Below are positions 2,532 through 44,203 of a stretch of 64,000 nt of DNA, piece by piece (the first letter of the stretch is position 1; every line of letters begins with the position of its first letter). A program made the translations under genes and the position numbers. Origin of the DNA: Kordiimonas laminariae (GTDB taxonomy: Bacteria; Pseudomonadota; Alphaproteobacteria; Sphingomonadales; Kordiimonadaceae); assembly GCF_023008165.1 (NCBI RefSeq), contig NZ_JAKQZA010000002.1, positions 124,001-188,000 of the forward strand. Direction: 5' to 3'. The notes beneath the pieces are model-generated. The model worked only from the letters and a program-made list of their open reading frames with translations, searched no databases and had not been told where the DNA came from.

Positions 2532-3821
2532 CTACTTAAAAGGGTCTTTTACAAGTATAGTGTCATCACGCTCAGGGCTTGTTGAAAGAAGTGCTACAGG
2601 CACCCCGATAAGCTCTTCAATGCGACGGATATACTTCACTGCTTTTGCAGGAAGGTCTGCCCAGCTACGCGCACCAAATGTTGTTTCATCCCAACCTTCT
2701 AGCGTTTCATATACCGGCTCAACATTCGCCTGGTCTTCCATGCCATACGGTAGGTAATCAATCACTTCGCCATTATGCTTGTAGCCCACACAAACTTTAA
2801 GTTCTTCAAGGCCATCAAGTACATCAAGCTTTGTAAGCGCGATACCAGTAACACCTCCAACAGCAAGGCTCTGGCGAACAAGAACAGCGTCAAACCAACC
2901 ACAGCGGCGGCTACGGCCTGTTACAGTACCAAATTCATGGCCTTTTTCACCAAGGAACTGGCCAATTTCATTTTCCTGCTCTGTCGGGAATGGGCCGGAA
3001 CCAACACGTGTTGTGTAGGCTTTAGTAATACCGAGGACATAATCAAGGCTATCAGGACCTAGGCCAGTACCGCCAGCCGCCTGGCCAGCGATTGTGTTTG
3101 ATGATGTCACAAACGGGTATGTACCGTGATCAATATCAAGAAGTGTACCTTGCGCACCTTCAAACAGAATGCGCTTACCTTCTTTTTCAGCGTCTTCAAG
3201 TGTACGCCATACATTGTTCATGTACGGAAGAATCTCACCAGCAATCTTCATTAGATCGTCAGTAATCTCTTTCGCATCGATTGCGTCGTGGCCAAGACCT
3301 TTGCGAAGAGCATTATGGTGCGTCAGCGCTACTTCAAGGCGCGCTTCCACAAGCTCACGAGACTGAAGATCACAAATACGAAGTGCCCGGCGACCAACCT
3401 TATCTTCATAAGCTGGGCCGATACCACGGCGCGTTGTGCCAATTTTAACACCCTTTGTTGCATCTTCGCGAAGCGCATCAAGCTCACGGTGATAAGGCAT
3501 AATCAGCGTAGCGTTTGCTGCGATCTGAAGTGTTTTAGGGTTAATTTCAACACCCTGACCACGAAGCGTATCGATCTCTTTGAGAAGCGCCCACGGGTCA
3601 ACAACAACACCGTTACCAATAACACTTACTTTACCGCCACGTACGATACCTGATGGTAGTAGTGATAGCTTGTAAACATTACCGTCGATCACAAGAGTAT
3701 GGCCGGCATTATGACCACCTTGGAAACGTGCAACAACTTCCGCACGCTCACAGAGCCAATCAACAATTTTGCCCTTGCCTTCGTCGCCCCATTGGGTACC
3801 GACTACAACAACGTTGCCCAT
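2532..3821 (-). CDS. purA: Adenylosuccinate synthetase
   Basis: 429 aa, the usual family length. It catalyses the GTP-dependent joining of IMP and aspartate to adenylosuccinate, the first committed step to AMP, in the cytoplasm. The N-terminus carries the P-loop-like GDEGKGK motif with the conserved catalytic Asp, followed by GGHNAGHT with the catalytic His. GIGPAYEDK and the switch-like GTTRRGIGP segment are intact. The start is ATG at 3821 with AAGGG upstream. It is the last gene of serC-serA-hisZ-purA, 52 nt after hisZ, and is followed by a strong terminator. purA next to hisZ is common in Alphaproteobacteria. Confidence 0.97.
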
Positions 3822-3873
3822 GCCAAATTCCCTTCAAATAAGATTTGCCTCTGCTTACATTCCACTGAGAGGC

Positions 3874-5049
3874 TTAAATAGCGCTGATTGCGCCTTTCGC
3901 ATAAACGTGGCTACACCCTAGCCGAGCCGCTTCTTTCTCGAAATCTGACCCATCTGTCAAGCCCTGAATCGTTCTAAAGCCCTCTTCACGCAATTTCTTA
4001 CCCTCAGATGCATCGGTTCCTTTTGGAAGGTAAACCCTGCTAACAGGCTGTAATGGCTCAACTGCACCCATCAAACTATCCAGATACACAGAAAAACCTG
4101 TTGCATCTTCTGCGTGCCCATCAGGATGAATAACCTGGTAGCGACCACCTCTTCCTAGCTCACTGGACCCACCTTTTGCAAATAAGGCGAAACCGATTCC
4201 CGTCTTATACTCAAAACCGTGGGTTTCGCATGGGTCGGCCGTAATCTGCATATCAGGCAGGCGCTTACCAAGCATTTCAACAAGTGATGCGAGGCGTTTT
4301 ACAAGCTTGCCAGCTTCTCCATTCAATTCGAGAGCAGAAAGAACCTCAACTGCATCTTCAGCAGGTCCTGCTGCCGAAAGTAGTTTTTCAAAAATCGCAC
4401 GAGGTTCTGGCGCTAATTCCGCCAGCGCCCCAATATCCTTGGCATCAAGTGCTTCAAGAACATGATCTTTTACATTCAATTCTAGTCCAAAACCGTCGCA
4501 AAGCATCGCAGCAAGCGGTGCAATAGTTAGGTCAAGCGTGAGATCAGCAATTCCCACAGCCTCAAGAGCTTCAACGGAAATAGCGATCACTTCAAGTTCA
4601 GCATCGATTGCGTCGCTGCCTACAAGCTCGACACCAGCTTGAATGAACTGGCGATCAGGCCTGATCTGGCTGCCTTTAGTGCGCAATACACTACCGGCAT
4701 ACGCAAGCCTGAGCGGTCGTGGGCTATCTGCAAGACGAGTAGCCGCAAGACGCGCCATCTGAATGGTCATATCCGCCCTTACAGCCATCATACGCTGTGT
4801 GTCAGGATCCATCAGGCGGAACATTTGCTTGCCTTTGGTGCTACCCGCGCCAACAAGCAGGCTGTCTTCATATTCGACAACCGGGGGAGAAACCCTGTCA
4901 TGACCATGAGAAAGGAAGGTATCCACAAGTTTACGTACTAGTGTTGCTTCCTGTTCAGCCTTTGGTGCAAGCTGATCACGAAACCCTTCTGGCAACAATG
5001 CCTGACGGGCATATGCACTTCCCGCCACTTTCTTTGAAGGCCCATTCAT
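3874..5049 (-). CDS. hisZ: ATP phosphoribosyltransferase regulatory subunit
   Basis: 391 aa. HisZ is a histidyl-tRNA-synthetase-like protein without tRNA charging activity that partners short-form HisG to make and regulate the first enzyme of histidine synthesis. The class II synthetase-like core is visible: LLPEGFRD near the N-terminus, then VRADMTIQMAR and LAYAGSVLR, and a glycine-rich GRGGRY motif late in the protein. hisG is not in the window, so the catalytic partner must be encoded elsewhere. It lies 32 nt after serA and 52 nt before purA, suggesting one transcript. A true HisRS would be longer and keep a C-terminal anticodon domain. Confidence 0.9.
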   Translation of the reverse strand: MNGPSKKVAGSAYARQALLPEGFRDQLAPKAEQEATLVRKLVDTFLSHGHDRVSPPVVEYEDSLLVGAGSTKGKQMFRLMDPDTQRMMAVRADMTIQMARLAATRLADSPRPLRLAYAGSVLRTKGSQIRPDRQFIQAGVELVGSDAIDAELEVIAISVEALEAVGIADLTLDLTIAPLAAMLCDGFGLELNVKDHVLEALDAKDIGALAELAPEPRAIFEKLLSAAGPAEDAVEVLSALELNGEAGKLVKRLASLVEMLGKRLPDMQITADPCETHGFEYKTGIGFALFAKGGSSELGRGGRYQVIHPDGHAEDATGFSVYLDSLMGAVEPLQPVSRVYLPKGTDASEGKKLREEGFRTIQGLTDGSDFEKEAARLGCSHVYAKGAISAI

Positions 5050-34554: not shown

Positions 34555-35349
34555 ATGTTCTCTATTATCACAAACCTATTAAAAATCGTCCTTCTATTTG
34601 CGGCGGTATTTTGCGTAAGTTTTAAAGCAACAGCAAAAGACACCAGACAACGTTCACTCATTATATTTGCTGCCTCAAGCACTCAAGACGTATTGCCTGA
34701 AATAGCGCGAGCTTTTTCACAAAAAACCAAAAACCCCAAACCTCTCTTCTCATTTGGGGGAAGTGCTATTCTAGCTCGACAGATTAATGCGGGAGCAAAA
34801 GCCGATATAATCATATCTGCCCACGAAGATTGGATAAGTTACTTACAAGAGAAAAAACAACTCAAAACCAACCCTACCATTATCGCCGCTAATACGCTTG
34901 TTATCGCCACCTCAAAAAGTAAAACAGCTACGATACCTCACATTAACAAAAACAACTTATTAAGCTTGCTTAAAGGGGGTAGATTAGCACTTGCGAACCC
35001 AGCTACATCACCAGCTGGCCAGTATGCAAAACGCTTTCTCTTATCTATTGATGCATGGGATGCCCTAAAAGGCAAAGTGGCCTATAGCCCAAATGTAAGA
35101 CAGACATTACGTCTAGTAGAATATGGAGGACTAACAGGTTTCATATATGCCTCAGACGCAGCGATCAGCACCAACGTTCATATCATACATAGAGTTCAAA
35201 ATAACCCGACAGAAAACCCAATTCAGTATATTGCTGCACCGCTAAAACAGAGTAATAGCACAGCCACTTCATTTATTGCTTTTCTGAAGTCACCAAATAC
35301 TGCTCCTATATGGGAAAAATACGGATTTATAACAATTGCATCAAATTGA
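34555..35349 (+). CDS. ModA-like molybdate-binding protein (orphan)
   Basis: 264 aa with a signal peptide (to about FKATAKD). SLIIFAASSTQDVLPEIA and FSFGGSAILARQI match the oxyanion-contact segments of ModA, and a PATSPAGQYAKRFL motif follows, as in the family. It should bind molybdate or tungstate in the periplasm, but no modB or modC gene is adjacent, so transport must use a permease encoded elsewhere or it may be a divergent oxyanion binder. It lies 8 nt after the SBP-3 gene in an AT-rich stretch. moaD-moaE lie at 49-50 kb. Confidence 0.8.
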   Translation: MFSIITNLLKIVLLFAAVFCVSFKATAKDTRQRSLIIFAASSTQDVLPEIARAFSQKTKNPKPLFSFGGSAILARQINAGAKADIIISAHEDWISYLQEKKQLKTNPTIIAANTLVIATSKSKTATIPHINKNNLLSLLKGGRLALANPATSPAGQYAKRFLLSIDAWDALKGKVAYSPNVRQTLRLVEYGGLTGFIYASDAAISTNVHIIHRVQNNPTENPIQYIAAPLKQSNSTATSFIAFLKSPNTAPIWEKYGFITIASN

Positions 35350-35449
35350 AACTAAACATCCAGTTTCATTTCAGATCACATATGCTTCATTTTGATACAT
35401 ACATTTCCTTGAACTGATAAAACCCTATATTTTCCGCCATTTCGAAAAC

Positions 35450-35466
35450 TGGCACAGTGGTTGCTA
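35450..35466 (+). promoter_or_regulatory. Sigma-54-type promoter
   Basis: TGGCAC (35450-35455), five bases, then TTGC (35461-35464) matches the sigma-54 -24/-12 consensus exactly, with the GG and GC dinucleotides at the right spacing. Transcription would start near 35475 on the plus strand and enter the structured RNA below. An activator site would be expected 80-200 nt upstream; none was recognised in the AT-rich 35350-35449. Confidence 0.65.
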
Positions 35467-35474
35467 TTCTTTAT

Positions 35475-35612
35475 GCAAACCGATTATCCGGCTGCCACCG
35501 ATTTCGGTTTAGATCAAGGTTGCTCTAGCTGCCACTTGCAGCAGCCCAGTGAATAGCCAACTGCCCAGATTTGCCCCCAAGCAATCCGAACTGGACAGTT
35601 GGCTTTTTCTTT
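35475..35612 (+). ncRNA. Candidate sigma-54-dependent small RNA
   Basis: About 138 nt from the predicted start to the end of a T run. Three hairpins are visible: AAACCGA (35477-35483) with TCGGTTT (35504-35510); GCTGC (35528-35532) with GCAGC (35538-35542); and a terminator whose 13-pair stem (35555-35568 with 35591-35604, one C-A mismatch) is followed by TTTTTCTTTTCTCT. No open reading frame of note lies in it. The terminator works only on the plus strand, which agrees with the promoter. It could instead be an attenuated leader of the MBL gene at 35672. I do not recognise its family. Confidence 0.55.
35555..35612 (+). terminator. Strong intrinsic terminator of the candidate sRNA
   Basis: AGCCAACTG-C-CCAG pairs with CTGG-A-CAGTTGGCT around a 22-nt C-rich loop (TTGCCCCCAAGC..), then TTTTTCTTTT. 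On the minus strand no T run follows, so direction is plus. Confidence 0.8.
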
Positions 35613-35671
35613 TCTCTAGTTGACTTTCCAAGAAACTGATACAGCTCTCTCCATAAGTTTGTGAGGCAGAT

Positions 35672-36580
35672 ATGAGTGTAGAATTTAAACAGGATTTTTC
35701 CGCGGAGTATGGAATACCAGAACAAATGACCAAACGGGTCACTCGCGTTCTGTGTAACAACCCAAGCCCGTTCACCTATACAGGTACAGGAACCTACCTT
35801 GTTGGTGCCGAAAATAACCTTGCGGTTATTGATCCCGGCCCCTTTGATACAGAACACGGGGAAGCTATTTTAAAGGCAGCTGGTGATAGGCCTATTACAC
35901 ACATTTTCGTAACACATAGCCACATTGATCACTCCCCTCTTTCAGCATGGCTTTCGGAAAAAACCGAAGCACCAATCTATGCGTTCGGACCGCACGGTAC
36001 CGGGCGCGCAGGAGGCCTTCAGGAAGAAGAAGTCGAAGCCGGAGCTGATAAAGAATTTATGCCAGACCACACCATCACTGATAGCGATACTTTTTCAGGG
36101 ACCGACTGGACTTTAAAAGCTATTCACACCCCTGGCCATACCGCCAATCATATGTGCTTTCTTCTTAAGGAGGAAAAACTCATGTTTGTTGGTGATCACG
36201 TTATGGGATGGGCTACAACAGTAATCGCACCACCAGACGGTGATGTAAGAAAATATATAGAAAGCCTCAAAAAAATAGCCGAAGAGGATGTAGAAAAACT
36301 CATCCCCACTCACGGCCCATGGGTGGAAAATCCAAAACCTTTCATCCGCGGCATCGTTACTCACCGTAAAATGCGTGAAGGGCAAATATTAAAGTGCCTT
36401 GAAGATGGAGCTAGCACTATCGATATACTAGTGGCTCGCATGTATAAAGACGTGGATAAACGCCTGCATCCGGCTGCTGCTCGTTCGGTATTCGGGCACA
36501 TTATTGCACTAGTTGATGAAGGTAGAATTTCCTGTGAAGGACCTCCACGTCTTTCAAGTATATATAGCTTAGCTGGCTAG
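35672..36580 (+). CDS. MBL-fold metallohydrolase
   Basis: 302 aa. The zinc motif THSHIDH (81-87) with a later GHTANHM and GDHVMG gives the HxHxDH and distal ligands of the metallo-beta-lactamase superfamily. The layout, with a C-terminal winged-helix-like region (KMREGQILKCL..) after the core, resembles the LACTB2-like subgroup that includes endoribonucleases and glyoxalase-II-like enzymes. Substrate cannot be fixed. It lies 59 nt past the terminator of the candidate sRNA, so it probably has its own promoter or depends on read-through. Confidence 0.85.
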   Translation: MSVEFKQDFSAEYGIPEQMTKRVTRVLCNNPSPFTYTGTGTYLVGAENNLAVIDPGPFDTEHGEAILKAAGDRPITHIFVTHSHIDHSPLSAWLSEKTEAPIYAFGPHGTGRAGGLQEEEVEAGADKEFMPDHTITDSDTFSGTDWTLKAIHTPGHTANHMCFLLKEEKLMFVGDHVMGWATTVIAPPDGDVRKYIESLKKIAEEDVEKLIPTHGPWVENPKPFIRGIVTHRKMREGQILKCLEDGASTIDILVARMYKDVDKRLHPAAARSVFGHIIALVDEGRISCEGPPRLSSIYSLAG

Positions 36581-43268: not shown

Positions 43269-44203
43269 TGCGTATTCTGTTTTATCTTGACGATTACCCC
43301 CATGAAATCTGGCGAGATGCACTACTTGCTGAAAACCCTGATCTGGAGTTCAGAAGCTACCCGGATTGGGGCTCACCTGAGGACGGGCCTGCTTATGCTC
43401 TTGTATGGGAACCGAAACCGGGCCTACTAAAAGATTATCCAAACATTCAGGCTATTTTCTCAATGGGGGCCGGGATTGATCATCTTACACGTGACCCCCA
43501 GCTACCCAAAGACACCCCTATCATCCGCATGGGTGATGATGGTCTTAAAGAAGGTATGGCAGAATTTATGGCAATGAGCGTGCTCATGCATCACAGGCAA
43601 ATGCCTTATCTTCTGGAACAGCAAAAGACGAAAAACTGGGCTCGTGTGTTTGCCCCAGCCGCCAAAGATGTTCAGGTGGGTATCATGGGATATGGCGCAC
43701 TCGGCAAAGCAGCTGCAGAGAAGCTCAAGCCTTTTGGCTATAATCTGGTTTCATGGTCGAGAACGGCCAAAGCACCTGAAGAAGGTATCAAACATTATTC
43801 CGGTACTGAAACCATTGATGAATTTCTTTCTGGCTCCAACATCCTTGTATGTCTACTGCCTGAAACCAAAGAAACGATCAACCTTCTTGATAAAGAACGT
43901 CTTCTAAAGCTTCCACAAGGTGCTTCCATCATCAATGGCGGTCGAGGCGGTCTCATTGATCTCGACGCTCTCGAAGAAGTGATGACCAGCGGTCATATAG
44001 AAAGTGCAACCCTAGATGTATTCCCCAAAGAACCTTTAAACACCGATCATCCGCTTTGGCATCAGGAAAAACTTATTATTACACCTCATGTTGCGGCTAT
44101 TACACGCCCAGATACGGCAGCTAACTATGTAGTTAGAAACATAAAAAAGCTGGAAAATGGGGAAGAACCAGAAAATAAGTTAGACCTAAATCGCGGATAC
44201 TGA
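43268..44203 (+). CDS. Glyoxylate/hydroxypyruvate reductase A-like 2-hydroxyacid dehydrogenase
   Basis: 311 aa. D-isomer-specific 2-hydroxyacid dehydrogenase of the GhrA type. The Rossmann motif GIMGYGALGKAAAEKL is near residue 140, the catalytic Arg is in INGGRGGLID, and TPHVAAIT holds the catalytic His. It would reduce glyoxylate or hydroxypyruvate with NADPH. Its ATG overlaps the preceding stop by 1 nt (TAATG). Confidence 0.85.
   Translation: MRILFYLDDYPHEIWRDALLAENPDLEFRSYPDWGSPEDGPAYALVWEPKPGLLKDYPNIQAIFSMGAGIDHLTRDPQLPKDTPIIRMGDDGLKEGMAEFMAMSVLMHHRQMPYLLEQQKTKNWARVFAPAAKDVQVGIMGYGALGKAAAEKLKPFGYNLVSWSRTAKAPEEGIKHYSGTETIDEFLSGSNILVCLLPETKETINLLDKERLLKLPQGASIINGGRGGLIDLDALEEVMTSGHIESATLDVFPKEPLNTDHPLWHQEKLIITPHVAAITRPDTAANYVVRNIKKLENGEEPENKLDLNRGY

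Follow-up and report, generated by a model that had tools for sequence, protein, structure and literature searches.

An intergenic region of the home genome probably encodes a free-standing small RNA, sRNA-A. It would be transcribed from a sigma-54 promoter under the control of an activator (EBP), end at a U-tailed hairpin and act in trans through its loops. By comparison of related genomes, the predicted promoter, the upstream dyads, the predicted secondary structure and the constant loops are conserved, and the candidate control region is common to a second RNA, sRNA-B. From these patterns we infer transcription, the identity of the EBP, the use of Hfq and the base-pairing mode. The preliminary description of this DNA proposed a sigma-54-dependent sRNA of ~138 nt, a reading that the conserved predicted promoter and the covarying stems support.

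The candidate gene is located between a modA-like gene and a gene encoding an MBL-fold hydrolase (Table 1), in a gap (35350-35671) whose previously given size of 322 bp was confirmed. In several relatives a modA-like C-terminal coding sequence, similar by eye, is found 5' of the RNA. The motif TGGCAC-N5-TTGC (TGGCACAGTGGTTGC) is present on the plus strand at 35450-35464, exactly where a full -24/-12 match had been described. It is the sole exact match in the window, that is, in the whole 64-kb stretch of DNA that was analysed. By itself the motif is weak evidence, since 12 matches with at most one mismatch occur in the window versus 14.8 expected. The home genome contains 14 exact copies, versus 3 for the reversed-pattern control. 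In sigma-54 promoters the GC of the motif occupies positions -13/-12. By this rule the predicted +1 is at ~35476, 12 bp past the promoter GC, and the start earlier placed at ~35475 would shift accordingly.

Table 1. Predicted features of the sRNA-A locus (positions in the window) and related features elsewhere in the home genome (G000; C, contig; L, locus)
Feature	Position	Strand	Remark
Upstream gene, ModA-like periplasmic substrate-binding protein	34555..35349	+	frequent neighbour of the RNA
Weaker dyad copy	35337-35353		two mismatches (counted by hand)
Predicted upstream activating dyad TGCTTCATTTTGATACA	35383..35399	+	differs from TGTnnCAnnnTGnnACA at one position; 67 bp 5' of the -24 element
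Predicted sigma-54 (-24/-12) promoter TGGCAC-N5-TTGC	35450..35464	+	fixed distance kept in 19/19 genus genomes
Predicted sRNA-A, ~138 nt, inferred +1 to end of U tail	35476..35613	+	R1 match 35472-35612
Hairpin 1 (H1)	35477..35510	+	CUGCCA at 35492-35497
Hairpin 2 (H2)	35518..35546	+	CUGCCA at 35529-35534
Terminator hairpin (H3, 35555-35604) and U tail	35555..35613	+	large C-rich loop UUUGCCCCCAAGCAAUCCG, 35570-35588
Downstream gene, MBL-fold hydrolase (Pfam Lactamase_B and BLACT_WH)	35672..36580	+	conserved neighbour
sRNA-B, home copy (L172; L094:1611-1738)	G000:C22:217858-217985
Candidate activator, orphan NtrC-type receiver-AAA-HTH protein (Pfam)	G000:C11:574459-575907

The best fold of sRNA-A consists of two hairpins with CUGCCA loops and a terminator hairpin, H3, whose stem has 9+4 pairs with a small inner hairpin and is followed by TTTTTCTTTT. 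The preliminary description listed three hairpins and then a 13-pair terminator; the U-tailed terminator hairpin is retained here, and the hairpins before it are reduced to two. The predicted energy (141 nt tested) is -45.7 kcal/mol, versus a mean of -33.2 for shuffled sequences (z = -3.4), and none of the 200 shuffles folded as well. A simple terminator scan gave no match at the end of sRNA-A, because its loop limit of 3-8 is exceeded by H3. Rfam contained no match for sRNA-A: a search of 35300-35720 with E values allowed up to 10 gave six weak, unrelated matches, none of them to Qrr. At gathering cut-offs no Rfam match was observed for three sRNA-A and three sRNA-B loci.

A DNA similarity search of 98 genomes, the home one included, produced matches in four, and the full-length gap was found only in the home genome and in G013, where it is 96% identical. 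Two weak matches were rejected, one lying inside an ORF (L017) and the other being a pspA-type promoter as judged by the divergent ORF (L018). The regions 5' of the MBL orthologues have the same layout in diverged sequence. A covariance model, R1, was built from 12 aligned genomes found via these orthologues; at E <= 0.001 it matched 23 of the 29 family genomes. It finds sRNA-A in all 19 Kordiimonas genomes examined (home included) and in the sister genus g4 (G021, G028). Seven of the genus genomes recovered were outside the training set, the weakest match being that of G017 (30 bits, E 2.2e-5). The home sequence, which was in the training set, scores 110.4 bits. No R1 match was observed in the family genomes G020, G022, G023, G025, G026 and G027. 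Matches L069 and L076 in G019 were judged spurious, and the two outside the family in a search of 196 genomes (G142, G180) were attributed to chance; by eye, all four have neither the promoter nor CUGCCA loops. Opposite-strand matches overlapping true ones were set aside.

Two diverged arrangements were seen upstream of MBL genes. G024 has a shrunken copy (L071) with one CUGCCA hairpin and the terminator, and without a sigma-54 motif. In G029, a single case from another family (L041, ~1200-1350), a sigma-54 motif leads into a three-hairpin RNA that carries two copies of UUAGACACC instead of CUGCCA and is not recognised by R1.

The sigma-54-type promoter is kept at all 21 sRNA-A loci (the partial G024 copy excluded), with the exact TGGCAC-N5-TTGC in 11 and one- or two-base variants in 10. 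All 19 genus copies conform to TGGCA(C/T)-N5-(T/C)TG(C/A), beginning 22 bp upstream of where the model starts. In both g4 genomes this distance is 71 bp, because their RNA has an extra CUGCCA hairpin. Covariation was counted after aligning 18 sequences to R1, without those of G017, g4 and G024. Both sides have changed in 25 of the 28 pairs of the guided structure. Paired cells make up 88.4%, versus 70.5% in shuffles and 32-46.8% when the structure is slid; the score for covariation reaches 0.61, versus 0.28 in shuffles, which ignore kinship. Of the helices, the terminator stem is kept best, with 98% of cells paired, and hairpin 2 least well, with 72%. The structure containing H1 and H2 was specified manually, and pairs were counted on an alignment fitted to it. 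Run unguided on a MAFFT alignment, RNAalifold recovered nothing beyond the terminator hairpin and a doubtful pairing of the two loop regions with each other; thus H1 and H2 rest on single folds and the guided count. The preliminary description had staked its reading on conservation of the promoter and stems in relatives, and both were found, the promoter at 22 bp in 19/19 genus genomes and the stems covarying. Since they are conserved, as seen in the R1 matches, the covariation and the dyads, the promoter and the fold are more than chance.

The 21 RNAs contain 39 copies of CUGCCA (two copies in 14 RNAs, one in five, three in two), mostly in a short hairpin. Three standard pairs flank 28 of the 39 copies, and the variants of these flanks include CGG/CCG, CAG/CUG, CAA/UUG and CGA/UCG. 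The terminator loop contains UUUGCCCC...CAAU(C/U)CG or a CCCCCUUUCCC-type sequence in 18 of 21.

The preliminary description suggested a scan for an activator site upstream of the promoter, and candidate sites were found at 21/21 loci. The 17-bp dyad TGTnnCAnnnTGnnACA occurs there up to three times per locus, often around positions -113, -88 and -67 relative to the -24 element. At least one dyad with at most one mismatch is present between -140 and -30 at all 21 loci, versus 0.2 expected in shuffles, and a perfect dyad at nine, versus 0.06 expected; the home copy has no perfect dyad. The dyad was defined on the same 21 loci, and therefore the genome-wide test weighs more. In this partly independent check, TGTNNCATTTTGNNACA was found at 30 sites in the 29 family genomes, versus 5 for the reversed control. 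Fifteen of these sites precede sigma-54-type promoters, five of sRNA-A and ten of sRNA-B. One more is upstream of the candidate EBP gene in G023, one upstream of the gene of a LuxO-like (by eye) regulator in G017, and 13 were left unassigned. For the looser dyad TGTNNCANNNTGNNACA the home genome shows no enrichment: there are 5 sites, one of them that of sRNA-B, and the control also gives 5.

Some sites of other kinds were observed as well. In G017, a LuxO-like response regulator gene is preceded by TGTTGCATTTTGCAACA (L102, G017:C1:491594-491610), which contains the LuxO site TTGCA-N3-TGCAA; a separate LuxO-type circuit in Kordiimonas is possible. In the home genome, one sigma-54 motif (L007, G000:C21:230659-230673) has similar flanks, with CATTTCAAAAC before the motif; it precedes a short ORF, and no dyad is present in the 60 bp directly 5'. 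Three sigma-54 motifs (L002-L004, G000:C11:25672, 35949 and 43876) lie within 18 kb, in a stretch that also encodes a LuxO-like activator (C11:28997, by eye). The motif at 43876 overlaps a perfect hairpin and a T run directly 5' of an ORF resembling an exopolysaccharide glycosyltransferase. This hairpin may belong to another transcript, as its 5' arm would precede the +1 of that promoter. The window itself also contains a serC leader (RF00517; 7900-7951, minus strand).

The ten further dyad-preceded promoters of the sigma-54 type lead into sRNA-B, a second structured RNA with UGCCUGA loops. Its three hairpins were all found by unguided RNAalifold, and 21 of 32 pairs change on both sides (nine sequences). 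Model R2 matches 41 of 192 order genomes; L191 was judged spurious, and features were counted at 30 loci, with 16 weaker matches left out. These loci come from four families of the order (f1, f2, f6, f7). A sigma-54-type promoter with at most one mismatch is present at 29/30, a dyad of the same quality upstream at 28/30, and two UGCCUGA copies at 24/30. Among the non-training loci the promoter is present at 20/21 and the dyad at 19/21. The home copy is flanked by an aminotransferase-V gene on one side and an acyltransferase gene on the other. A similar acyltransferase ORF (by eye) is found 3' of sRNA-B at seven other loci and is absent there in G027. Together, sRNA-A and sRNA-B probably form an undescribed RNA-based control circuit of this marine bacterial group.

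The home genome encodes nine strong and two weak matches to PF00158, which by our reading include NtrC, NtrX, FlbD-, NorR- and PspF-like proteins and two LuxO-like ones. The best candidate for the activator of both RNAs is the orphan NtrC-type regulator (Table 1). The sequence TGTCCTGAAATGATACA is located directly before its start. Orthologues were matched in 75 of 192 order genomes, and among the 30 loci taken for the site count, 23 have a dyad-like site with at most two mismatches upstream; the mononucleotide-shuffle rate per locus is 0.05-0.16, the loci being related and kinship ignored. Four of the five most distant of these loci have a one-mismatch site. Of the eight other strong activators of the home genome, one has a dyad-like site, at -233.

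The candidate EBP is present in 25 of the 29 family genomes (E <= 1e-150); the other four are G002, G022, G024 and G025. Both the EBP and sRNA-B were found in 23 of the 29, and both are missing in three, G022, G024 and G025 (Fisher p 0.01, uncorrected for kinship). G002, which is 76% complete, has sRNA-B. G014 and G009 have the EBP and no R2 match under stricter filters. In G020, G023, G026 and G027 the EBP is present and sRNA-A absent, and G024, where the EBP was not found, has the sRNA-A remnant lacking a sigma-54 motif. The EBP reaches the cut-off of none of the 25 NCBIfam families listed out of 110 (NtrC 426.5 of 558.6, LuxO 399.6 of 800, GlrR 341.6 of 763), and thus no name was assigned. 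Inspection by eye of the neighbouring ORFs of at least 180 aa revealed no histidine kinase. That the EBP is an orthologue of Caulobacter TacA is conceivable. No TacA site is given in the excerpts of the literature searched, including PMC7010744 and PMC12421884.

These observations suggest the following mechanism. A phosphorylated NtrC-type EBP, most likely the orphan regulator, would bind the phased 17-bp dyads ~65-135 bp upstream and open the promoter, and only then would sigma-54 RNA polymerase start sRNA-A at ~35476. The same EBP would turn on sRNA-A and sRNA-B at once, and it seems to bind before its own gene. The transcript would end at the U-tailed hairpin, leaving the two CUGCCA apical loops and the C-rich terminator loop to act in trans. 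Most likely the loops are repeated seeds for mRNA sites that contain GGCA and lie close to ribosome-binding sites, and pairing with them may change translation or stability of the mRNA. Candidate sites of the form GTGGCAGC-N0-25-ATG were sought in five genomes. The home genome has 79 matches versus 26 for the reversed control, an excess that codon usage can explain. Fifty of the 79 were followed, in 39 stretches; among the matches listed, three had a plausible start. None of the three is a convincing target of sRNA-A, the best being L237, with GTGGCAGC before AGGAGG and no Pfam match.

For the repeated loops, pairing with mRNA is favoured over holding of a protein. Nevertheless, it is conceivable, if somewhat doubtful, that the loops (CUGCCA in sRNA-A, UGCCUGA in sRNA-B) titrate an RNA-binding protein in the manner of CsrB/RsmY or CrcZ. 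The loop sequence is constant while its small closing stem covaries, the number of CUGCCA copies per RNA varies from one to three, and two otherwise unrelated RNAs under one dyad have the loop core UGCC in common, all of which would suit such a decoy. However, a base-pairing seed would be constant too, and the third conserved element, the C-rich terminator loop, is not a copy of CUGCCA. The decoy RNAs CsrB and RsmY carry GGA in their repeated loops, where CsrA binds it, whereas the loops of sRNA-A and sRNA-B have no GGA motif, and there is no candidate for the bound protein. In a broader scheme, which we consider tentatively, one old EBP of the order drives unrelated sRNAs, all with repeated UGCC-core hairpin loops aimed at a single partner, which could be an RNA-binding protein or a common class of GGCA sites in mRNAs. 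If so, the number of loops would set the dose, and the loop sequence would change in concert within an RNA.

The position of sRNA-A could also indicate regulation in cis. The preliminary description named as its main alternative an attenuated 5' leader of the MBL gene, and indeed the RNA is directly 5' of this gene in 18/19 genus genomes and, by eye, in G021, G028 and G024. This reading is weakened by the one remaining genus genome, K. marina/G012, where a cation-efflux ORF (3015-4001, 328 codons) intervenes between the RNA (L079:2474-2618) and the MBL gene. Moreover, the best-kept helix is that of the terminator, and sRNA-B, with the same control region, adjoins an unrelated gene. Among ten MBL orthologues from other families of the order, one (G029) has a sigma-54-type motif upstream. 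The motif (at most one mismatch, within 420 bp upstream) is absent at the other nine (L038-L040, L042, L044-L048), and also 5' of eight more distant orthologues (L084-L091). A leader is thus unlikely, and the MBL gene is probably not the gene regulated. The hairpin does follow the modA-like gene and has its orientation, but a mere terminator of that gene next to a chance sigma-54 match is very improbable, given that the promoter, the dyads and two more hairpins are conserved at fixed spacing across the genus. Nor is a small protein gene at all probable. A short frame does begin with an ATG at 35473, but this codon precedes the predicted +1, and the variation follows the stems. In 15 of 21 homologues, the RNA downstream of +1 contains no complete ORF of at least 15 codons. 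The ORFs of the other six are mutually unlike, save in two sister species, so that no ORF is common.

The predicted free-standing sRNA has parallels among known systems. Qrr sRNAs are short hairpin RNAs with their own terminators, and the LuxO site is TTGCA-N3-TGCAA. As would be the case here, in Vibrio several sRNAs (Qrr1-5) are under one NtrC-family regulator, LuxO, and sigma-54, with enhancer sites ~100 bp upstream according to PMC11407668. However, sRNA-A and sRNA-B have no match to Rfam Qrr, and each has its own loop motif, so they are not siblings. No sRNA-A dyad reads as a LuxO site, the nn positions being TT, AT, CC, TC, AC and similar, and the candidate EBP is below the NCBIfam LuxO cut-off (399.6 versus 800). 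GlmY is another sRNA of the sigma-54 type, with three upstream TGT...ACA enhancer sites according to PMC6075780. The site of its regulator QseF (GlrR) is written TGT-N12-ACA, and also TGTC-N10-GACA, in extracts from PMC8745638. The 17-bp dyad described here is of a similar type but reads TGT-N11-ACA, and the candidate EBP is below the GlrR cut-off (341.6 versus 763). Unlike GlmY, sRNA-A has no Rfam match and no qseEGF-like linkage: it adjoins modA-like and MBL genes, and no kinase was recognised beside the EBP.

Conserved pairing or loop motifs are also known in alphaproteobacterial sRNAs, namely alpha-R8/SisA and those with the CCUCCUCCC loop ('cuckoo') (PMC12559287, PMC3927594). The RNAs considered here differ in their CUGCCA or UGCCUGA loops and in their gene neighbourhood. 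SisA-D of C. crescentus have distinct expression patterns (PMC12559287, in part), in contrast to the shared dyad of sRNA-A and sRNA-B. In S. meliloti, sigma-54 motifs were reported upstream of 112 mapped start sites (PMC3616915, in part). The titles and abstracts searched mention neither sRNAs of Kordiimonas nor these motifs, and PMC9426491, as far as its indexed text goes, holds both 'Kordiimonas' and 'small RNA'.

In our reading, by analogy, sRNA-A and sRNA-B would constitute a regulon of sigma-54 sRNAs whose design resembles LuxO-Qrr or QseF-GlmY but whose RNAs are unrelated to those. To our knowledge, the known sigma-54 sRNA circuits (Qrr, GlmY, an RpoN-dependent sRNA of Enterobacteriaceae) are all gammaproteobacterial. 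The present analysis adds, in an alphaproteobacterial order, two new candidate RNA families with a common promoter design and enhancer dyad, and a candidate activator. sRNA-A ranges over one genus and its sister, and sRNA-B over four families of the order. The predictions are directly testable in culturable marine bacteria, and the partner of these repeated-loop RNAs can be fished out.
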